The notes under the pieces are model-generated. The model was not told the DNA's origin. It made no database searches and worked only from the letters and a program-made list of their open reading frames with translations. Source: a virus. From it: a DNA stretch of 34,433 bases. The stretch spans positions 1-34,433 of the IMG/VR virus record IMGVR_UViG_3300022752_003751. One strand, 5' to 3'. Position numbers and translations under genes: made by a program. Each line of letters opens with the position of its first letter. Within the stretch, counting starts at the first letter, position 1. This document shows positions 4,356 to 14,583 of the stretch, piece after piece.

Positions 4356-5662
4356 GGCGAACCCTGTGTTACTGTTACGGAGCAGCCACTCATATTCGCG
4401 CAGGCTTGAGTGATGTTATAGACTTGATTAATTGTTCCTTGCTGAGTAAGATTTAGTGTAGAAGCACCACCTGCATTGGCTAGGTTGATTGTGGCGCGAT
4501 GGCTACCTGTTCCTGTTTGTGTGGCGTTTACTGTGTGACCCGAACCTGCTACAACTAGATCCATAAATTGAGCACCTGCTGCTCCTTGAAGCACATTGAT
4601 ATAATTGCTATTACCTGAGATATTCGCATAAAATGTATGATAAACACCTGCTCCCCAGGCCTGATTAACATTTACTGTGTTGGTATTACCTAGTATCTCA
4701 GTTCGATTATAGTGCCCTGAATTAGCACCACCTGCATTGGTTTGATTAAAATGTACAGTATTTGTGCTTCCTACAACTTTCAAATCTATAAAATGTCCGC
4801 CACTCTCTACGCCATCTTTCCATACGTTAGGCCAAGTGCCGTTCCAACCTTGTAATAGGCTAATAGTATTGCTTGTTCCATTTACATCTAATTCTATAAG
4901 ATTCCGTCCCGCACCATCTCCTTGACGAACTCTCAGTGTGTTAAAGTTTCCAATCAGTTGAGCATCACCTTGACCACCTCTACCCTGTATGACATTAACA
5001 GGACCTTCTTGTATAATATCTACTGTAGGGTTATTACCGCTTTGTGTAATGCTTACTTTGTTACCTGTAGGAAGTGCTGCTAAACGAGCACGGTCTGAGT
5101 TTTTTTGTGCGAGATCGGCGGCTGTTTCACTGCTGCTATACCAATTGGCGCTACCCCCTCCTTGTGCGGGATCTACTGCCATAACATAATTACTATCTAA
5201 AACTTGATAAGTTCCATCAAGTTCTGGATCCCACCATACCCAAAATTTCCAGTCTTGACCTCCGCTGTTGTAAGCCCAAAACTCTATTTTGACAATATCA
5301 CCAGGTTTAGCAGTATAAGAACCAAATCCATAATTACAGCAGTTATAGGTAGCAACGGTCTGGCCATTAATCCTTAAAAATCCTTCATCATCATAGCCAG
5401 CGGCAAAGTTTATAGTTCTATTAATACCGTTGTTAGTGCCTGGCCATCTTAACCAAGTATAGGCATAAAACCAAGCACCACTATTACCATTGCCATCTAT
5501 AGCAATACTATTCCAATAGCCATCCACTGTCCAACCATTATCAGCGCTGCCTTGAACACGCCACTGGGCATGTGCAGGAGTGACTGCTATAAAAACTAAA
5601 CTTAGGCATAGTATAAGAACAAATATGCCAAATCCTGTTACCCATTTATATCCGTATTTCAT
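4352..5662 (-). CDS. Curlin-repeat amyloid-like protein with N-terminal beta domain
   Basis: The 436-residue protein has a long signal peptide (hydrophobic core about 8-28, TPAHA cleavage near residue 32). Residues 36-155 are rich in Trp, Tyr and Gly and resemble a PA14-like or lectin-like beta-sandwich (YDDEGFLRINGQTVATYN, GDIVKIEFWAYNSGG). From about 200 to the end it carries at least seven curlin-type repeats, with spaced Asn and Gln in patterns such as VSITQSGNNPTVDIIQEG, SNTISLLQG, NTNTVNVNQAWG and STLNLTQQG. These match the CsgA/CsgB Asn-x5-Gln logic for beta-helical amyloid strands. CsgA is about 150 residues, so this is a large fused version. The ATG overlaps the FecR gene's stop. I infer export through the CsgG-like pore upstream and surface display; adhesion by the N-terminal domain is a guess. 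Confidence 0.75.
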   Translation of the reverse strand: MKYGYKWVTGFGIFVLILCLSLVFIAVTPAHAQWRVQGSADNGWTVDGYWNSIAIDGNGNSGAWFYAYTWLRWPGTNNGINRTINFAAGYDDEGFLRINGQTVATYNCCNYGFGSYTAKPGDIVKIEFWAYNSGGQDWKFWVWWDPELDGTYQVLDSNYVMAVDPAQGGGSANWYSSSETAADLAQKNSDRARLAALPTGNKVSITQSGNNPTVDIIQEGPVNVIQGRGGQGDAQLIGNFNTLRVRQGDGAGRNLIELDVNGTSNTISLLQGWNGTWPNVWKDGVESGGHFIDLKVVGSTNTVHFNQTNAGGANSGHYNRTEILGNTNTVNVNQAWGAGVYHTFYANISGNSNYINVLQGAAGAQFMDLVVAGSGHTVNATQTGTGSHRATINLANAGGASTLNLTQQGTINQVYNITQACANMSGCSVTVTQGSP

Positions 5663-6792
5663 CTGTATGTTTGATTAATTATAATCTGTCCTTGGGGGCG
5701 TCCTGAACTAAAATTGTTACTGATATTCATCATATCTTGTGTAACACTGACTTGGACTTGTGTGTTCATTTGTAGTGAAACCTGAGCAACATTACGACCA
5801 TTTTGACTCACTGATTCTACTGCCCAACCTACCTGTTTGGTTTCACTTTTATCTTTATATATTTTACGTAGCCATTCTGGATCTTCTGATTTGGTTTCTT
5901 CCTTGGCAGTTGATGCAGGAATTTCTTCTTTAACTTCAGCCTGTGCTACTGTGGTTTTTGAGTCAGTAGAGGCCTGGGCTTGTTGAGCCTTTTTAGCATC
6001 TGCCGCCTGGTTACTTGCGACTTGTTCTGAGTTATCACCACCATCTTTGCTCTCTTCTTTGCTCTCTTTCTTTGAGTCATCTTTCTTCACTCCTGGAACA
6101 CCTGCTTGTGCTGCTGCTGCTCTTGCTGCTGCTACCAACGGAGCACCACTCATTGTGGGCGGTGGGCTTACTAATAAGTTTGTGCCAACTGGCGTATTAA
6201 ACAGATTGACCGTTATAGGTGGACTCGGTGGAGCACCTGCTGTTTCTACCATGGTTGCCTGATATGGTCTATTCATATTAATGGTGCTAGGACCGCTGGT
6301 TACATCAATAGCCCCGCTTTTACACTCGTCGCCTACGCACTGAGGCATAAGAATAACAGTTGATGCACCTACTTCATTGACTGCCATGACAAAGTCAGTG
6401 CCACGCACAGCGATTGCCGCAGTTGGTGTATTAATTTTCACAGCATTAGGGTTAGCACCGGCTATGGCACCACTTACATAGCGCACAGCGCCGCCAGTGG
6501 CCTTTAGACCAAGTTTTCCTCCCTGAGCATTTTTAGGATCATAAACAAAATCATCAATAACCAAACTACTGTGTTCCGTGACTGATACTGTAGTATTGTC
6601 CTTAAAAGTAATTTTAACCTTGCCATTCTTTGTTTCAATCTTATCATTAGTTTGAATCACCGTTCCCTTGGCTATTGTCACAGAATCTTTACCACGTTTT
6701 ATTGTGCCACTGCCTGTGATCTCTGTAACTGAACCTATGTCTGCCCAGGCCGTGGTGGCGCAAAATAATAAACTTAAAAAGTAATAACGCAC
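5659..6792 (-). CDS. Exported FecR-domain protein in curli-type operon
   Basis: It starts at GTG (6790-6792): AAGGAG lies five bases upstream, and no ATG fits better. A signal peptide (MRYYFLSLLFCATTAWA) is followed by a FecR domain at about 18-190, with GSGTIKRGKDSVTIAKGTVI, IETKNGKVKITFKDNTTVSV and TPTAAIAVRGTDFVMAV, the last being the typical xAVRGTxF core. Next comes a proline- and alanine-rich stretch, then a Ser/Lys/Glu low-complexity linker (about 235-310). The C-terminus (about 325-377) is a beta-prone Gln/Asn segment (VSLQMNTQVQVSVTQD) that faintly resembles a curlin strand. Known FecR domains occur in sigma-regulator proteins and in peptidoglycan-associated exported proteins. Here there is no sigma factor or membrane helix, so a structural or periplasmic scaffold role beside the curlins is the better inference. 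Confidence 0.8.
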   Translation of the reverse strand: MRYYFLSLLFCATTAWADIGSVTEITGSGTIKRGKDSVTIAKGTVIQTNDKIETKNGKVKITFKDNTTVSVTEHSSLVIDDFVYDPKNAQGGKLGLKATGGAVRYVSGAIAGANPNAVKINTPTAAIAVRGTDFVMAVNEVGASTVILMPQCVGDECKSGAIDVTSGPSTINMNRPYQATMVETAGAPPSPPITVNLFNTPVGTNLLVSPPPTMSGAPLVAAARAAAAQAGVPGVKKDDSKKESKEESKDGGDNSEQVASNQAADAKKAQQAQASTDSKTTVAQAEVKEEIPASTAKEETKSEDPEWLRKIYKDKSETKQVGWAVESVSQNGRNVAQVSLQMNTQVQVSVTQDMMNISNNFSSGRPQGQIIINQTYR

Positions 6793-6801
6793 GACAACTC
6801 C

Positions 6802-7668
6802 TTATGGTGTTGTTCTTTGGATTATATTCCAAACTCCGCTACTGCCCACAGTGGTAATTTTAACTACATTGTCCTGTGTGCCTGCTTGACTGATAGCGAA
6901 CCTATTACTTGCTCCATTTACATCCATCCAAACACTGCTACCATAGGCGCTGTTACCTGTTTGACTGATATTAAACACATTGAAGTTACCTGCCACGGTG
7001 ATAGTTTGATTATGCTTATTACCTACAGAGTCAATGTTAAATTCATTGCTGTTTCCACTGGTCACTGTGATTTGACTGTTTAGATCATCACCTGTGCCAC
7101 GAAACTGTATGGTATTGCTATTACCTGTAAATTTCCAATTCAGCACAGCATCTTTACAACCTGTCAATGCTGTTCCTGCTGAACTTGATCCTGATCCGCA
7201 TAGGACATCAGCAAAATTACTGTTGCCTAATTGTTGAATAGTAATATCTACTCCCTGTGCTGCTACATCTGGGCTTATGGCCTTCATAGCAATGGTGTTA
7301 TTGTTACCTACCTGATTTAATATAATGTTATGATCGTCGCCACGTAGGTATATGGCACTGTTTACTGTATATTGACGCACACCACCTGCGTTTAGTCGAT
7401 CCACAATACCTGTTATAATTTTGCTATAGGTTGAATCACTGCCTGCTGTATTGCCACTACCTGTTTGTGTAATGCTGACATTAGGACGTTCGCCGTCTTG
7501 ATCTACGAACACACGATTGGTAGCACTTTGTGTCAGTGCTGTGGCTGTGCCAGCCATTACTCCCACTGTGGGATCAACGGGAGTTGTTGGGGTTGGTGCT
7601 GCCACTGTGGTTTGTGCTGCTACCGGAAATGCTGAGATCATCAGCAGTGTTAATAGTGTTTTTTTCAT
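6802..7668 (-). CDS. Secreted curlin-repeat protein (CsgA/CsgB-like)
   Basis: I place the start at the ATG at 7666-7668, which has GGAG five bases upstream and opens directly into a signal peptide (MKKTLLTLLMISAFPVAAQ, cleavage near 19). A start six codons earlier lacks this support. The 288-residue product carries a Pro/Thr-rich stretch, then repeats of the form Gly-Asn-x-Asn-x-Ile-x3-Gln. These are VSITQTGSGN at 64-73, HNIILNQVGNNNTIAM at 113-128, ITIQQLGNSNFADV at 142-155, GNSNTIQF at 182-189, FNVFNISQTGN at 229-239 and NRFAISQAGTQDNVVK at 255-270. This is curlin-like spacing. A CGS/GCKD pair of cysteines sits mid-protein, unusual for curlins. It is probably a subunit exported by the CsgG-like channel encoded just upstream. 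Confidence 0.78.
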   Translation of the reverse strand: MKKTLLTLLMISAFPVAAQTTVAAPTPTTPVDPTVGVMAGTATALTQSATNRVFVDQDGERPNVSITQTGSGNTAGSDSTYSKIITGIVDRLNAGGVRQYTVNSAIYLRGDDHNIILNQVGNNNTIAMKAISPDVAAQGVDITIQQLGNSNFADVLCGSGSSSAGTALTGCKDAVLNWKFTGNSNTIQFRGTGDDLNSQITVTSGNSNEFNIDSVGNKHNQTITVAGNFNVFNISQTGNSAYGSSVWMDVNGASNRFAISQAGTQDNVVKITTVGSSGVWNIIQRTTP

Positions 7669-7685
7669 GTTCGCTCCGTCCTTCA

Positions 7686-8597
7686 TTAGTTTGTTTTAAC
7701 TGGTTGGCCGCTGGAGTCGACCAATCCTTGATTTGGGGCTGATTCAGTAGACTGGGGGGCAGTTTTGGGCTGCGGTGTCGAAACCAAGTTATGTTTCACT
7801 TGCTCCTTGTATTTCCACAGTCCTTGGCTTTCTCCTTGACGAATAAGTTCTATTACACCCGCTTCTATGGCCGAACGTAGAGCATAGTTGCCCGGTTCAT
7901 TAAAAGTCTGACTTGAGTCTAATTCAAAGGCTCTTGTGGCAGTGTTGAAGAATTTAAATGTAGTAACACCTTCTGCTGTAGAAAGTAAGTTCTTTTCAAT
8001 AGTGACGCTGGTTAATACTTCACCTGTTTGAACACTGACCAGTCTTAGACTAATAACGACTAAATCTTGTGTATATTGAGTATATGGCCCTATGCCCAAC
8101 CAACGTGCTCCTGTACCACCTGTCAGTGTGTTTGAATTATAATCTATAATACCGCCCTCAATGATAACACCTGCTAGTGTCATCGGTGGCAGCATCTTGG
8201 CCTTTTCACCATCATAGATCTCACGAGTCTGTTTGATCATTTGACGTTCTTTTAGTAGGTTATCTAAACCAACACGTTCGACCACAGTAAACCATTGACG
8301 ATTGCCTGCTTCTGCCAATGTCTTAATTAGATAACTTTCTGCGCCTTGTGTAACAGCAGATGAAAACAAACTTAAAGTATTACTTGGCTTACGTTGTCCT
8401 GTTAGGTCTCTAAAGTTGTATACCGCTACAGTGATTGGAGGACCCATTGGTGCTGGAATGGTATTTAGGTCTTTCAACATGTTTTGGCTAACTCTGGGAG
8501 GAGTATCTAATTTAGCCTCTAAAACAGGACGCATGGCATTACAACCACCTAAGGCTATACTTGCTGCTAATATTGATAATTTTAAAGTGTTCTTCAT
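7686..8597 (-). CDS. csgG: CsgG-family curli secretion channel, outer-membrane lipoprotein
   Basis: The 303-residue protein (E. coli CsgG is 277) begins MKNTLKLSILAASIALGGC. The LGGC lipobox predicts lipidation at Cys19 and outer-membrane targeting. Its body follows CsgG closely: ITVAVYNFRDLTGQRKPS, QGAESYLIKTLAEAGNRQWFTVVERVGLDNLLKERQ, LAGVIIEGGIIDYNSN, a GGTGARWLGIG turn and DLVVISLRLVSVQTGEVLTSV. Known CsgG forms a nine-subunit pore that secretes unfolded curlins. A Pro/Ser/Gln-rich extension lies at the C-terminus. The ATG follows the csgF stop by one base (TAATATG); I prefer it to a TTG four codons upstream. With csgF beside it and curlin-like genes after it, the assignment is strong. 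Confidence 0.92.
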   Translation of the reverse strand: MKNTLKLSILAASIALGGCNAMRPVLEAKLDTPPRVSQNMLKDLNTIPAPMGPPITVAVYNFRDLTGQRKPSNTLSLFSSAVTQGAESYLIKTLAEAGNRQWFTVVERVGLDNLLKERQMIKQTREIYDGEKAKMLPPMTLAGVIIEGGIIDYNSNTLTGGTGARWLGIGPYTQYTQDLVVISLRLVSVQTGEVLTSVTIEKNLLSTAEGVTTFKFFNTATRAFELDSSQTFNEPGNYALRSAIEAGVIELIRQGESQGLWKYKEQVKHNLVSTPQPKTAPQSTESAPNQGLVDSSGQPVKTN

Positions 8598-8598
8598 A

Positions 8599-9072
8599 TT
8601 AGAATCCAAAACTTGCTATAGGAACTTTAACAACAGTGACCGTGCCTGCTTTATCAACCACTGTCAAAGTAACATCTTTATCTGTTTTTACCCAGGTTAT
8701 AGTATTGCCGTCTAAACTAAACACTCCGCTTGAAGGGTTTACACATCCTGGAATCGCTAATCCGTCTGCACCTTGGCATTTATTTTGGAATAGGTTTGTG
8801 CTGAGTTGACTGGCCAATTGAGCATATACTTGACTGGTAAATAGGCTCATAAAGCGAGCCAATGGTGTATTCTGTGCTTCGGCTAACAATTTAGCCTCTT
8901 CTGATTTCTTTTGACTTTCTATATTATCCTTACGTGCCTTTTCTATACTGTCTATAGTAAGAACATGGCTGCTCCAGTTTTGTCCATTGAAACTGGGGCT
9001 TTTGAATTGTTGGACTAACTCTGCCTGAGCCAACAATGGTAGGAAAAACAATGCTAACGCAATCTTCTTCAT
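8599..9072 (-). CDS. csgF: CsgF-like curli assembly factor
   Basis: This 157-residue secreted protein has a signal peptide MKKIALALFFLPLLAQA. The mature N-terminus, ELVQQFKSPSFNGQNWSSH, has the form of the CsgF segment (FxNPxFGG) that inserts into the CsgG pore. An AEAQNTPLARFMSLFTSQVYAQLASQL helix corresponds to the CsgF central helix, and a C-terminal beta sheet follows (ITWVKTDKDVTLTVVDKAG resembles [20 protein letters not shown]). Cleavage near residue 17 and a size close to E. coli CsgF (138) support it. Two cysteines flank GADGLAIPG, a feature I do not recall in E. coli CsgF. It is the first gene of the curli-type operon, has an AGGAG site, and lies 20 bases after a T4-type late promoter. 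Confidence 0.85.
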   Translation of the reverse strand: MKKIALALFFLPLLAQAELVQQFKSPSFNGQNWSSHVLTIDSIEKARKDNIESQKKSEEAKLLAEAQNTPLARFMSLFTSQVYAQLASQLSTNLFQNKCQGADGLAIPGCVNPSSGVFSLDGNTITWVKTDKDVTLTVVDKAGTVTVVKVPIASFGF

Positions 9073-9521: not shown

Positions 9522-10577
9522 TTAAGTGCTTATATTATTTTGTTGTGGTTCTTGACCCATAGGAATTTTACTACCTACAGGTTTATTGATATTTTGTATG
9601 CTTTTAGGTTCTTGAATAGGTTGAGTGGCCTGCTGTGATTGTTGTTTAATAACTGTATCATACGCTTCATCTATAGATTTCCAAGCCCTACCGCCATTAG
9701 GATAGGCAGTGACACGAGCATAACGGATACCAAAATCACTTCGATCTGCGCTGAATCTAACGGTCATCACTGGATCATATTGATCGCCCGGTGTGTCACC
9801 ATTACTCCAAGTATGATTTCCTTTGATTACATATCCACCACCTTGTGTTTTTTCTAAAACAGGATGACCTTGTAGCACTAGGTCTACATTGCTGGGACCG
9901 TTTTGCCCACTCTGAAAATTCTTACCAAATACAACAGCATTTTTTAAGTTAATGCTGGTGATCAATTTACCATATGTGGGACCTCTTTGCATTTCTTGCC
10001 CAACTATGGCCTTAAGTTTTTGCACAAAATCTGCTACTTCTGGATCTCTTGCTAGATGACTCACTCCGCCCCATTGACCAAATCCTTTAGGACTATTACC
10101 ATCCTTTAGGCTTATCCAAGCCACTTCTGTTCCAGATGGATCTACTATGGCTGCATCTGCTTTTACGGTGCCTGGAACTTTTACAAGACCAGCAGCCTCT
10201 ACAGTCCTTTTGCCTACTGTCAGTGATATGCTCGGTAGTCCTTTTAATCGTTCTTTTATAGCAGAATCCAATGCTATGATTTGGCCTTCTTCTTTTTCAA
10301 GACGACCACCTTGCGCTTCTGCAGGTTTTACCTGTATGGTAGCGCCATCATACTTAACCATTTTACCATCATCTGAAATTTCTGCATCCGGAAATATTTG
10401 TTTTATATCTTGTATTACATTATATCTTTGATTGGCAGGTACAACTACCTTCGATGTAAAGTTAGTTTTTTTAATAACATCATAACCTAAAGGTTCTAAG
10501 TATTGTATTATTTCATCAGAATTTGTTTTTTCTGAAATAATAGTTATTGTTTCATAAATGAACTCATTTGATCGCAT
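9522..10577 (-). CDS. Probable packaged protein with T4-type capsid-targeting N-terminus
   Basis: The 351-residue protein begins MRSNEFIYE. This fits the T4 capsid-targeting peptide (MKTYQEFIAE), with a final I-x-E that T4 prohead protease gp21 cleaves after. The interior has a Q/E-rich linker, then KADAAIVDPSGTEVAWISLKDG. That segment looks like a PD-(D/E)xK-type nuclease core (D...S-x-K) but has Ser where Glu is usual, so I hold that loosely. FGIRYARVTAYPNGGRAWKS lies further on, and the C-terminus is Gln/Pro-rich. A CATAAATA late box ends seven bases before the ATG and there is no ribosome binding site. I infer a late protein carried inside the head, possibly injected. The nuclease idea could be wrong; a structural internal protein is the alternative. 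Confidence 0.6.
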   Translation of the reverse strand: MRSNEFIYETITIISEKTNSDEIIQYLEPLGYDVIKKTNFTSKVVVPANQRYNVIQDIKQIFPDAEISDDGKMVKYDGATIQVKPAEAQGGRLEKEEGQIIALDSAIKERLKGLPSISLTVGKRTVEAAGLVKVPGTVKADAAIVDPSGTEVAWISLKDGNSPKGFGQWGGVSHLARDPEVADFVQKLKAIVGQEMQRGPTYGKLITSINLKNAVVFGKNFQSGQNGPSNVDLVLQGHPVLEKTQGGGYVIKGNHTWSNGDTPGDQYDPVMTVRFSADRSDFGIRYARVTAYPNGGRAWKSIDEAYDTVIKQQSQQATQPIQEPKSIQNINKPVGSKIPMGQEPQQNNIST

Positions 10578-10584
10578 AATAAAA

Positions 10585-10592
10585 TATTTATG
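10585..10592 (-). promoter_or_regulatory. Late-type promoter CATAAATA
   Basis: The minus strand reads CATAAATA (7 of 8 to TATAAATA). It overlaps the stop codon of the bilin reductase gene and ends seven bases before the ATG of the probable packaged protein. No Shine-Dalgarno element intervenes, so the leader would be at most a base or two. Confidence 0.5.
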
Positions 10593-11259
10593 CGGCTTCT
10601 GGAAACAGAACTTCGTCTACAAATCTTAAAATTGTAGGTTCGGGTACACCCATAGCAATCATGCTTTTAACAACTTGTGGATTTTGCTTTTGATAATAGC
10701 AATATCTATTTTGTGCCATATGGAAATCTCCTCCAGAGGTCTGTGTAAGTCCGACATTTTTAAGATAGTAATCTAGTGTTTCTAAAGCAAGGTCACATAA
10801 TCTATCTACTTCTTCCTCATCTTGTACATTACCTGCGGCTATCATACTAGAACTGAATATTTGCTTGGCCCATTCAGGGAGTTCTCTTGGTTTATTCCAT
10901 TTTTTATCTTTTACATTATCAGAAAACCATTTTATCATAAAATGATTAGGATCACCTGCTGCGCTAAAATCGTGGAACGCACCTGTAATTTTACTGCGTC
11001 CAGTAACGGCATCAAATCCCCATATAGGACTAGGATCATTGTAATGTGGGAAAACAGTTGAATGAAGTATGTAAATTCCGTGTGAAACCCGCTTATCTAC
11101 AATTTCTATATGCGCTCTGCGATACCTAATACTAGACCACAGATTATTTTCCCAATCATAATTTTCGTTTAGTTTTTCTTCTATTGGTTCACCTGTGATA
11201 TTAAAACGCCTTGTTAAATTCAAAGCCAATTCTTCAATTTTGTTCCAGATCTCCATCAT
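10588..11259 (-). CDS. Ferredoxin-dependent bilin reductase (PcyX/PebS-like)
   Basis: The 223-residue protein has the bilin-reductase core. RRAHIEIVD (48-55) matches the family's kmHLE segment. ILHSTVFPHYNDPSPIWGFDAVTG follows, with H66 and D83 at positions resembling PcyA His88 and Asp105. KITGAFHDFS (90-99) matches the conserved VTaaFmDfS strand. The C-terminal helix ends ILRFVDEVLFPE. Known enzymes reduce biliverdin IX-alpha to phycoerythrobilin or phycocyanobilin using ferredoxin. Directly upstream is heme oxygenase, which makes biliverdin; the genes overlap by 26 bases. From memory, PcyX-type enzymes with a nearby heme oxygenase occur in oceanic phage contigs, the best match here. The final product cannot be read from sequence. 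Two adjacent ATGs are possible starts; AAGGA favours the second (11256). No ferredoxin gene is in the window. Confidence 0.82.
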   Translation of the reverse strand: MMEIWNKIEELALNLTRRFNITGEPIEEKLNENYDWENNLWSSIRYRRAHIEIVDKRVSHGIYILHSTVFPHYNDPSPIWGFDAVTGRSKITGAFHDFSAAGDPNHFMIKWFSDNVKDKKWNKPRELPEWAKQIFSSSMIAAGNVQDEEEVDRLCDLALETLDYYLKNVGLTQTSGGDFHMAQNRYCYYQKQNPQVVKSMIAMGVPEPTILRFVDEVLFPEAA

Positions 11260-11776
11260 AATCCTTCATCATTTTAATTGCCCAATCAAAGGCAGTATTT
11301 GCTTCAAGGCCTAAACCATCATGAAGTTTTGACCTAAGCGTTTGCATTAACATTGGAGCATTAGTAAATTCAAGTGCAAGATGAGATCCCGGAACTATCT
11401 TTTTAATCATTTGGCCACCGAACATATCACCCATATGCCAAGTATATAGATGTGCTAGAACTTTATCAGCATCATTGCCTATATGATCCAAATACTCTCC
11501 GTATTCTAAAACAGGTTTTCTTATTGAATGAATGGTAACACCTTCGTTCATAATTGTATAATCTTGCAAAAGATAATAAGAACGTTTAATATCTTGTAAA
11601 TTATCTAATAATCCAAGTTGTCCAGCGTGGAATTCAATTTTATTGTAAAAGTAACTTTTTTGTTTAGTCCAAGACACCCATAGATCCATAGGTAGTTGTT
11701 TTTTAAACACTGCTTTCATGAATGGGGTTGATTCTGCCTCTGTATGTTTTTCTTTGGTAAATTCTTTTAATGACAT
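11234..11776 (-). CDS. Heme oxygenase (HO-1 type)
   Basis: The 180-residue protein matches the heme oxygenase fold. The proximal heme ligand lies in FTKEKHTEAES (H11). The distal helix is HLYTWHMGDMFGGQMIKK, in which GDMFGGQ corresponds to the conserved GDLSGGQ. The length is somewhat below the usual 210-240. The enzyme opens heme with oxygen and reductant to give biliverdin, iron and CO in the cytoplasm. Its ATG follows the clpS stop by one base and has no ribosome binding site, so it is probably translated by re-initiation after clpS. Its own end overlaps the bilin reductase start. Together they form a two-step heme-to-bilin pathway. The C-terminal helix FDWAIKMMKDYDG completes the fold. 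Confidence 0.88.
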   Translation of the reverse strand: MSLKEFTKEKHTEAESTPFMKAVFKKQLPMDLWVSWTKQKSYFYNKIEFHAGQLGLLDNLQDIKRSYYLLQDYTIMNEGVTIHSIRKPVLEYGEYLDHIGNDADKVLAHLYTWHMGDMFGGQMIKKIVPGSHLALEFTNAPMLMQTLRSKLHDGLGLEANTAFDWAIKMMKDYDGDLEQN

Positions 11777-11777
11777 A

Positions 11778-12083
11778 TTATTCAGGTTCGATTTTAATTT
11801 CTAATGGGAATCCGTTGGATCTGGCCAAATGTACAGATTCAACAGTTTTTTGTTCTGCGATTTCATAGAAGTATAAGCCTACTACAGCACTGCCTTCATT
11901 GTGAACTTTTAAGGTGAGATCTTTGGCCACTGCTTCGTTGTGTTTAAAAATTTTAATTAGTAAAACAATAACGAATTCTGCAGGAGTGACATTATCGTTT
12001 ATAAAAATAACTTTATACTTTTTAGGTACTCTGTTTTTTTCAAAAACTTGTGGGGATTTTTCAACTACAGCGTCAGTAGACAT
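11778..12083 (-). CDS. clpS: ClpS-like adaptor of the Clp protease
   Basis: The 101-residue protein reads as ClpS. The N-terminal extension (about 1-20) is followed by KKYKVIFINDNVTPAEFVIVLLIKIF, LKVHNEGSAVVGLYFYEIAEQK and a C-terminal strand FPLEIKIEPE. Known ClpS binds N-degron substrates and hands them to ClpA or ClpC. Binding-pocket residues N29, D30 and H61 are present, but the second Asp of the usual N-D-D is Asn (N31), which might shift specificity. An exact TATAAATA box ends five bases before the ATG and there is no Shine-Dalgarno element, so the mRNA may start at the AUG itself. It heads a tight operon with heme oxygenase and bilin reductase. No Clp ATPase is encoded here, so it would act on the host's. 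Confidence 0.85.
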   Translation of the reverse strand: MSTDAVVEKSPQVFEKNRVPKKYKVIFINDNVTPAEFVIVLLIKIFKHNEAVAKDLTLKVHNEGSAVVGLYFYEIAEQKTVESVHLARSNGFPLEIKIEPE

Positions 12084-12088
12084 AATTA

Positions 12089-12096
12089 TATTTATA
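12089..12096 (-). promoter_or_regulatory. T4-type late promoter TATAAATA abutting clpS
   Basis: The minus strand carries an exact TATAAATA ending five bases before the clpS ATG. With T4 geometry (+1 six bases past the last A) transcription would start on the A of the ATG. It follows the hsp20 terminator at once. Confidence 0.65.
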
Positions 12097-12101
12097 TATA
12101 A

Positions 12102-12124
12102 TTAAGGGGCTTTATGCCCCTTAA
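12102..12124 (-). terminator. Terminator hairpin after hsp20
   Basis: A perfect nine-base-pair stem (TTAAGGGGC / GCCCCTTAA) with an ATAAA loop lies just after the hsp20 stop codon. A TTATATATAA tract follows on the minus strand instead of a clean T run, so termination may be partial. The inner GGCATAAAGCC is identical to a hairpin in the hsp20 leader. Confidence 0.65.
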
Positions 12125-12127
12125 CTA

Positions 12128-12568
12128 TTACTCGCCTTTGATTTCTAATTTGCGTGGTTTTAGTGAATCTGGAATAATTCTTTCTAATTTTATAGTAAGA
12201 ACTCCATTTTTAATTTTGGCATCACCTACTTCTATATGTTCTGCCAAAGGCCAAGTGCGAGTAAAATCACGTGATGCTAATCCATGATGAAGATAAGTTG
12301 TAGTCTCTTGATCATCTCTTAAACGTTCACCTTTAACAATCAAAAGATCTTGATCAACTTCAACCGAAACTTCAGTTTTTTCAAAACCTGTTACTGCTAC
12401 CTGTAATTCATAAGAGTTAGTATCAGTTTTAATGATATTATAAGGGGGATAGTTATTGTTGATTTGATTTGCGAAACGACGTTCAAAGTCGTTGAACAAT
12501 GTGTCGAATCCTAATAGGGCTCTGTTCAAAGCACCTGTATCAAAACGTACTAATTGAGTTTGTGTCAT
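12128..12568 (-). CDS. Small heat-shock protein (Hsp20/alpha-crystallin, IbpA-like)
   Basis: The 146-residue protein has an N-terminal arm (RFDTGALNRALLGFDTLFNDFERRF). The alpha-crystallin domain at about 38-130 contains YNIIKTDTNSYELQVAVTGF, VSVEVDQDLLIVKGER and a late G-V-L-T-I strand in KIKNGVLTIKLERI. A short tail with an I/L-x-I-like anchor (RKLEIKGE) follows. It matches class A bacterial IbpA in length and layout. Known members hold unfolded proteins for refolding by DnaK, which is encoded immediately upstream. The gene has its own sigma70-like promoter overlapped by an exact T4 late box, and a structured leader ending in a hairpin that pairs the ribosome binding site. Marine T4-type phages often carry Hsp20; the pairing with DnaK is the unusual part. 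Confidence 0.92.
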   Translation of the reverse strand: MTQTQLVRFDTGALNRALLGFDTLFNDFERRFANQINNNYPPYNIIKTDTNSYELQVAVTGFEKTEVSVEVDQDLLIVKGERLRDDQETTTYLHHGLASRDFTRTWPLAEHIEVGDAKIKNGVLTIKLERIIPDSLKPRKLEIKGE

Positions 12569-12681: not shown

Positions 12682-14583
12682 CTAATTTTTAACCTCAGTG
12701 AAAGATGCATCAACAACATTGTCATCTTTTTTCGATTGAGATGATCCAGATTCTTGTTTGGCTTTTTCTGCCTGTTGTTTAGCAGTAATAGCAGGCATAG
12801 CACTATTAATCAATTCCATAACAGAGTTTTTAATTGCTTCTGGATCTTCTCCTTTCATAACTTCATCAAGTTTGTTCAATGCCTCGTTTATTTTGGTTTT
12901 TTCTTCATCGCTAAGTTTATCATCAACTTCAGCTAAATCTTTTTTAACTGTATAGATTTGGCTTTCTGCTTGGTTTCTAGCCGTAATCAATTCACGCATT
13001 TTTTTATCAGACTCAGAATTTTCTTCTGCTTCCTTAATCATACGTTGAATTTCAGTTTCACTTAGTCCACTAGAACTTTTAATTGTAATTGTATTTTCTT
13101 TGCCTGTTTTTTTATCCTTGGCACTGACATTTAAGATTCCATTGGCATCCACATCAAAGGTAACTTCAATTTGCGGAATTCCTCTGGGAGCAGCCTGTAT
13201 ATCGTTTAGATTAAAATCACCTAATAATTTATTATATACCACTAGGTCACGTTCACCTTGATATATTCTTATAGTAACAGCAGGTTGATTATCTTGTGCA
13301 GTGCTAAAAGTTTCTGTGGCCTTAGTCGGGATTGTTGTATTCTTGTTTATTAACTTGGCCATTACTCCACCTTGAGTTTCAATTCCTAAACTCAATGGAG
13401 TTACATCCAATAATAAAACATCTTTACGATCTCCTGCTAGCACAGCACCTTGAATTGCTGCGCCAACGGCTACCGCTTCGTCTGGATTAACATCTTTTCT
13501 AGGAGTTTTGCCAAATAAAGATTCTACAGCCTCTTGTACCTTAGGCATACGTGTCATACCACCAACAAGTATTACTTCATCAATATCTGATGCAGTTACA
13601 CCTGCATCCTTCATGGCAATACGACAAGGTTCAATACTTCGTGCGATAAGATCATCTACAAGGCTTTCTAATTTAGCCTTGGTTATATTAATATTCAAAT
13701 GCTTTGGACCACTAGCATCTGCTGTTATGTAAGGTAAATTTACAGAAGTTTGTTGACTATTTGATAATTCGATTTTGGCTTTTTCAGCGGCTTCTTTTAA
13801 TCTTTGAAGTGCCAAAACATCTTTTGTAAGATCTACACCTTGTTCTTTTTTGAAAGTCTCAACAAGATAATCCATTAAACGTTGATCAAAGTCTTCACCA
13901 CCTAGGAAAGTATCACCGTTGGTGCTTAAAACTTCAATTTGCTTGTCATTATCGATATTGGCGATTTCAATGATACTGATATCAAAAGTACCTCCACCTA
14001 AGTCATACACAGCAATTTTACGATCTTTTTTATCTGTTTTATCTACACCATAGGCCAATGCCGCTGCTGTAGGTTCGTTAATAATACGTAATACTTCTAA
14101 TCCTGCAATACGACCTGCATCTTTGGTAGCCTGTCTTTGACTGTCGTTAAAGTATGCTGGTACTGTAATAACTGCCTGAGTTACTGTTTGTCCAAGATAA
14201 TCTTCAGCAGTTTTTTTCATTTTACGTAAAACTTCTGCGCTGATCTGTGGTGGCGCAATTTTTTCATTATTGGCCTCAACCCAAGCATCGCCGTTATCGG
14301 CTTCTGTGATTTTAAAAGGCATTAAATCTATATCTTTTTGTACTGCTTCTTCTTTATACTTACGCCCAATTAATCGTTTGGCAGCATAGATTGTATTTTT
14401 AGGATTAGTAACTGACTGCCTTTTGGCACTTGCGCCTACAAGGATTTCATCAGAAGTATAGGCAACAATACTAGGTGTAGTCCTTGCACCTTCTGAGTTT
14501 TCTATTACACGGGGATTTCCATTTTCGATGACTGCCACGCAGCTATTGGTGGTACCTAAATCGATACCTATGACTTTACTCAT
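12682..14583 (-). CDS. dnaK: Full-length DnaK (Hsp70) chaperone
   Basis: The 633-residue protein is near the size of E. coli DnaK (638) and keeps every hallmark. These are [14 protein letters not shown] at the N-terminus, [73 protein letters not shown] and the linker [14 protein letters not shown] near 390. The substrate domain has [17 protein letters not shown], and the C-terminal helical lid ends in [12 protein letters not shown], like the bacterial VVDAEFEEVK tail. It should bind ATP and unfolded proteins with host DnaJ and GrpE, neither of which is in the window. A GATAAATA late box lies about 70 bases upstream, and the leader has the same RBS-hiding hairpin as hsp20. A whole dnaK is rare in phages and suggests capture from a bacterium. 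Confidence 0.97.

Follow-up and report, generated by a model that had tools for sequence, protein, structure and literature searches.

The closest described systems are the hemO-pcyX cassette of pelagiphages (Mosig EXVC030M; PcyX EBK42635) and the hemO-pcyA/X-valaS cassettes, in which, as in the locus analysed here, a heme oxygenase (HO) gene adjoins a gene for a ferredoxin-dependent bilin reductase (FDBR) of the same family (PMC11480375). The purpose of HO and FDBR genes in phages of non-photosynthetic hosts has been called enigmatic (PMC11480375). Phage ClpS proteins and whole phage Clp sets also have precedents (PMC7824862, PMC6102473). Glutamyl-tRNA reductase (GluTR) is a heme-dependent target of ClpS1 and the Clp protease in chloroplasts, and the Salmonella enzyme, too, is a substrate of Clp (PMC7966870). 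A preliminary description of our locus had held that a link between proteolysis and bilin synthesis would be new. A link between Clp and tetrapyrrole synthesis as such is not wholly new (PMC7966870). We found no description of a clpS-HO-FDBR operon in a literature search that covered few subscription journals. Our analysis points, with a probability of roughly 0.6, to a late, translationally coupled tricistronic clpS-HO-pcyA operon downstream of a phage proteostasis block, whose co-expression would drain heme.

Layout of the clpS-led operon

The window, meaning the whole 34,433-nucleotide stretch of viral DNA that we analysed, carries on its minus strand, in order, dnaK, hsp20, a hairpin, the element TATAAATA, clpS, HO and FDBR. 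The upstream neighbour dnaK (Hsp70) lies at 12682..14583 (633 aa; Pfam HSP70, 2.8e-257), and hsp20 at 12128..12568 (146 aa; Pfam HSP20, 1e-15) is immediately upstream of clpS. The three genes that follow were identified as previously proposed: clpS at 11778..12083 (101 aa; Pfam ClpS, 1.9e-24), HO at 11234..11776 (180 aa; Pfam Heme_oxygenase, 7.2e-14) and FDBR at 10588..11259 (223 aa; Pfam Fe_bilin_red, 1e-15). HO starts 1 nt past the clpS stop, and FDBR starts 26 nt inside HO, in agreement with the proposed heme-to-bilin pathway encoded by overlapping genes. Next downstream, also on the minus strand at 9522..10577, is a gene for a 351-aa protein without known function (phrog_13937, 1.9e-38), whose MRxxEF start is shared by proteins encoded after FDBR in many loci. 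A partial curli operon (csgF, csgG, a curlin-repeat protein and a FecR-domain protein) occupies 5659-9072 of the same strand; a curli operon is known in pelagimyophages (PMC7029224).

A terminator-like hairpin 3' of the hsp20 stop (TTAAGGGGC-loop-GCCCCTTAA, with a GC-rich 9-bp stem, at 12102..12124 on the minus strand) separates hsp20 from the clpS operon and leaves clpS as its first cistron, as had been claimed. Among relatives, a GC stem is found no more than 50 nt upstream of the start in 49 of 57 distinct clpS genes. Between hairpin and gene, TATAAATA, a putative T4-type late promoter element (12089..12096, minus strand), ends 5 nt before the clpS ATG. Across the whole window TATAAATA is not enriched (four copies, all intergenic, versus 5.06 expected by chance). 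In relatives, a TAAATA core stands 3-8 nt before the start of 23/57 distinct clpS genes versus 62/860 other genes; for hsp20, HO and FDBR the counts are 0/52, 2/62 and 0/64. Because the core recurs at clpS starts and is nearly absent from those of the other three genes, the promoter-like element belongs to clpS and heads the operon, which sustains the earlier proposal of a late-promoter-like element at this position. With such spacing, a T4-type late promoter would start transcription at about the ATG, and the clpS mRNA may thus be leaderless. Rfam and tRNA scans gave no match.

Conservation of the clpS-HO junction

Scans with window queries returned 38 (FDBR), 51 (HO) and 22 (ClpS) viral loci; as clpS and HO themselves served as queries, the numbers of linked loci should not be read as frequencies in the population. 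The order (dnaK)-hsp20-clpS-HO-FDBR recurs in dozens of distinct contigs, and 34 of the first 112 loci, many of them cut short, include dnaK. For 46 of the 51 distinct clpS genes with an HO, the spacing to HO is -4 to +9 nt; the exceptions carry a ketosynthase insert (L016, L017, L062, L064) or a 34-nt gap (L009). We rejected alaS as the inserted gene, the insert, which occurs between clpS and HO in L016, L017 and L062-L065, being of the FabF ketosynthase type. The overlap of HO and FDBR is kept except in L009 and group C. The neighbourhood is therefore not unique to this contig, and the conserved clpS-HO pairing that the preliminary description had proposed looking for in related phages is widespread: after clustering at 80% identity, 65 of 81 HO representatives are clpS-linked, the deepest linked pair being 24% identical. 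On the HO tree, which like our other trees is a quick search with a midpoint root for drawing only, the clpS-linkage label needs ~5 changes and the unlinked groups (the pelagiphage type and group B) nest among linked ones; linkage as the ancestral arrangement is a likely reading of this tree.

A search of the operon DNA against cultured phages gave no match. GTDB genome matches of FDBR with clpS were limited to two, a Neomarinimicrobiota MAG (L114) and a Rickettsiales MAG (L115). We rejected both as bacterial relatives: they carry the phage-type hsp20-clpS-HO-FDBR cluster and are likely phage contigs binned into MAGs.

We also scanned with a ClpS profile whose alignment mixed HO-linked and unlinked ClpS, which biases the following rates. 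In the 78 loci scored among the best 80 of at least 558, hsp20 is directly upstream of clpS in 74, HO is directly downstream in 47, and a GMP-reductase/IMPDH gene follows clpS in 13. A scan with the Mosig HO yielded 80 loci, of which 74 have FDBR; neither clpS nor hsp20 occurs in any of the 80. With hsp20-clpS found apart from HO (in GMP-reductase phages and in Pseudomonas phage PA5oct), and HO-PcyX found in Mosig apart from ClpS, clpS is anchored to hsp20 and not to HO.

It is quite possible, at a little under even odds, that clpS and HO-FDBR are neighbours only. The site behind hsp20-clpS and the late promoter would then be a slot for auxiliary metabolic genes, in which HO-FDBR landed once and was kept by descent, the proteins having separate jobs. 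The GMP-reductase/IMPDH or other genes that follow clpS elsewhere fit such a slot, as do the ketosynthase inserts, the PA5oct and Sinorhizobium phage Phosso arrangements, and the HO-FDBR pairs of pelagiphages and group B that exist without clpS. The junction itself is harder to square with it: its -4 to +9 nt spacing persists across HOs that are 24-40% identical, whereas the outer genes change, and promoter-like elements are almost absent in front of HO and FDBR themselves. That ClpS and the bilin-making enzymes are co-expressed, on which the coupled-operon reading builds, is well supported.

ClpS, the Clp machine and the bilin enzymes

Of 24 records searched, 15 encode ClpP, and 14 of these 15 belong to a set of 22 long viral clpS-HO contigs; full-length ClpA is encoded (~750 aa) in 10 of 20 contigs and one more (G017), each time together with ClpP. 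The phage ClpA comprises Clp_N, two AAA domains and a GFGS loop, and its best NCBIfam model is TIGR02639 ClpA (885 bits, below the NCBI equivalog cut-off); ClpX with a zinc finger is also present in relatives. Neither ClpA nor ClpP was found in the window's closest relatives, G022, G023 and G024, all partial contigs. Behind the catalytic His, some ClpPs (among L282, L283, L284, L285) contain additional residues (MIHRVSSGTRGTSGSVHVQ...) that others lack. Three loci contain a dnaJ-peptide deformylase-clpA operon (L286 676-4220, L289 783-4400, L290 627-4161), with the deformylase gene directly before that of the N-degron unfoldase. Leucyl/phenylalanyl transferase (Aat), which makes N-degrons, was found in none of 24 records.

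Given how many relatives have genes for ClpP and for full-length ClpA, the ClpAP protease that ClpS serves is most likely run or redirected by the phage. ClpA or ClpP also occurs in clpS phages without HO; this company of Clp proteins and hsp20, with and without HO, marks the Clp machine and hsp20 as the natural partners of ClpS, and HO-FDBR as a frequent, tightly coupled addition to the clpS/Clp/hsp20 set.

A closer tie, in which ClpS-ClpAP removes the host's hemoproteins or its 5-ALA-forming enzyme (HemA/GluTR or AlaS) and so frees heme or steers tetrapyrrole flux into HO-FDBR, seems to us unlikely. It has a parallel in the chloroplast and Salmonella GluTR precedents (PMC7966870), and several clpS-HO phages bring their own ClpAP and their own 5-ALA synthase (AlaS above cut-off in 6/24 records). 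Mosig, however, manages without ClpS and ClpP, and some phages have ClpS but no HO. As ClpS is found alongside hsp20 and ClpA/ClpP also where HO is missing, its pairing with HO is not obligatory, and for the same reason, together with the ClpS-free HO-PcyX of Mosig, we rate a biochemical link between ClpS or N-degron proteolysis and bilin making as possible and no higher.

The window HO is of the HO-1 type, keeping the proximal His and the GDxxGG distal-helix motif, and its PDB matches are HO-1/HO-2. Among the 81 HO representatives the proximal His and the Gly are kept in 81/81 and the Asp in 80/81.

For the reductase, the preliminary description had pointed to viral pathways of the PcyX type. 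Alignment to 2d1e, 3i95 and 5owg places window residues E52/H66/D83 at PcyA Glu76/His88/Asp105; the column of residue 52 holds residue 76 of 2d1e, Gln76 of the E76Q mutant 3i95 and the Asp of PcyX 5owg. The PcyX hallmark Asp55, present in 5owg, Mosig, group C and group E, is thus replaced by Glu in the window. The predicted model (pLDDT 90) has an FDBR fold, with PcyA and then PcyX as top folds. Across 84 FDBR representatives, a set that holds two cyanophage PcyA sequences twice, the Glu76-position column contains D 36, E 34, S 6, N 5, Q 2 and H 1, and the catalytic His88 and Asp105 are invariant (84/84). Glu-type and Asp-type sequences form separate clades (support 95-99), both mostly clpS-linked, and the product type (Glu76 versus Asp55) switches across the tree as clpS linkage stays.

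That the enzyme is instead a PcyX with phycoerythrobilin as its product, in line with the customary annotation in phages, appears improbable. PcyX 5owg is its best solved relative by sequence (169 bits versus 44 bits for PcyA), and the two belong to the same phage family. Yet the window has Glu in place of Asp55, a residue described as catalytic and specific to PcyX (PMC11480375); Glu76 is PcyA-specific, required for 18-vinyl reduction and absent from PcyX (PMC10151467); the two types fall into separate supported clades; and phycocyanobilin is the product of a freshwater phage enzyme that lacks Asp55 (PMC11480375). Given the Glu at the Glu76 position, where PcyX has Asp, the window FDBR is PcyA-type at the product-determining residue, with phycocyanobilin the likelier product, within a family whose structure-function rules are described as not reliably predictable (PMC13193486).

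Other features of the bilin module vary. Tandem FDBRs, with an Asp-type (PcyX-like) first and a Glu-type (PcyA-like) second, occur in L016 (6321-7666), L062 (7488-8866) and L064 (7488-8866). In group E (L026-L037) a DUF454 membrane protein gene precedes alaS-FDBR or FDBR, and in many group A loci a DUF454 gene also lies ~3-6 kb upstream, on the strand opposite to the module; the protein is a possible partner. A Fer2 ferredoxin was found in none of 22 phage relatives, appearing only in Mosig and one MAG, so electrons for FDBR must be host-derived. No phytochrome PHY domain was found in 21 records, and accordingly no phage-side use of bilins. In another setting, a relative of the bilin reductases is joined to an AAA+ machine: PDB entries 8xqw and 8xks show a PcyA-like protein within the chloroplast Ycf2-FtsHi AAA+ motor complex.

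Aligned to E. coli ClpS (E. coli numbering), the window ClpS keeps the pocket residues N34, D35, T38, H66 and L99 and the ClpA-docking residues E79, E82 and K84, with D36 changed to Asn, the gatekeeper M40 changed to Ala and an N-terminal extension of ~18 aa. Its predicted model lies 0.6-1.2 A from ClpS structures, confirming the fold; the top matches include 3g1b and 3g3p, engineered Caulobacter M53A proteins with the same Met-to-Ala change. The M53A mutation relaxes ClpS specificity. Of 129 ClpS sequences compared, nearly all retain the pocket and docking residues. M40 is replaced in 42/94 HO-linked versus 8/35 other ClpS, a difference that relatedness alone may explain; the HO-linked proteins have Met in 52/94 and otherwise mostly Val or Ile. 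The Met gatekeeper is variable and not required for ClpS, plant ClpS1 having Arg (PMC7966870). By its pocket, fold and docking residues, the window protein is a predicted ClpAP N-degron adaptor that would deliver substrates.

ClpS inhibits ClpAP on ssrA substrates. The phage protein might likewise sit on host ClpA and block degradation of ssrA-tagged and other non-N-degron proteins, protecting late phage proteins, and the ~18-aa extension would suit this role. We consider it doubtful: N34, D35, T38 and H66 are kept in 94/94 HO-linked ClpS, and mere blocking would not need them. Least probable of all is a private phage ClpAPS N-degron protease, with its adaptor co-made with HO and FDBR, that couples proteolysis of host hemoproteins or of gatekeeping enzymes of the tetrapyrrole pathway to the conversion of heme into bilins and iron and whose relaxed gatekeeper (Ala, Val, Ile) widens the N-degron code.

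A probable coupled operon and its described counterparts

For the timing, activities, product and purpose of the linkage, we infer the following. The clpS-HO-pcyA genes would be expressed as a late, coupled operon behind the dnaK and hsp20 proteostasis block. ClpS would feed ClpAP, using the phage's own ClpA and ClpP in many relatives and the host's in others, perhaps including the window phage. HO would open heme to biliverdin IX-alpha, iron and CO, and FDBR would reduce the biliverdin, most likely to phycocyanobilin in the window phage, whose enzyme is of the Glu76 type, and to phycoerythrobilin in Asp-type relatives. Late co-expression would be the simplest explanation of the linkage: while host proteins are cleared, heme would be drained, iron recovered (the window encodes the phage's own class I ribonucleotide reductase) and reactive biliverdin removed.

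The individual parts of this arrangement are met elsewhere in other combinations. Bradyrhizobium ORS278 brings HO, PcyA and AlaS together in a hemO-pcyA-alaS-bphP island (PMC11480375), which differs from the window in being bacterial and phytochrome-linked, with clpS not reported. Agrobacterium phage Atu_ph07 encodes a whole Clp set, ClpX/A/B/P/S (PMC6102473). The jumbo phage PA5oct has an hsp20-clpS pair like that of the window, and Phosso a looser sHSP-tk-clpS order with the sHSP two genes before clpS; in neither is the next gene HO or FDBR, and we rejected these next genes as diverged HOs, as they had no profile match. The freshwater phage CB_2 is likened by description: its PcyA, an FDBR without Asp55, was shown to make phycocyanobilin, and its cassette is described as broken and with valaS, the paper's text mentioning no clpS (PMC11480375). 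Pelagiphage hemO-pcyX cassettes also belong to T4-like aquatic phages, and AlaS is encoded elsewhere in some window relatives too. The window differs from Mosig in that its operon is led by clpS with hsp20 upstream, whereas Mosig lacks ClpP and its complete genome contains no ClpS, and in that its FDBR has the PcyA Glu76 where the PcyX of the Mosig-type cassette has Asp55. The well-studied HO-FDBR cassette thus nests within phages whose operon is led by clpS, many of which encode all or the greater part of a Clp protease. This points to bilin synthesis taking place in a setting of protein turnover under phage control, with ClpS as a concrete partner.
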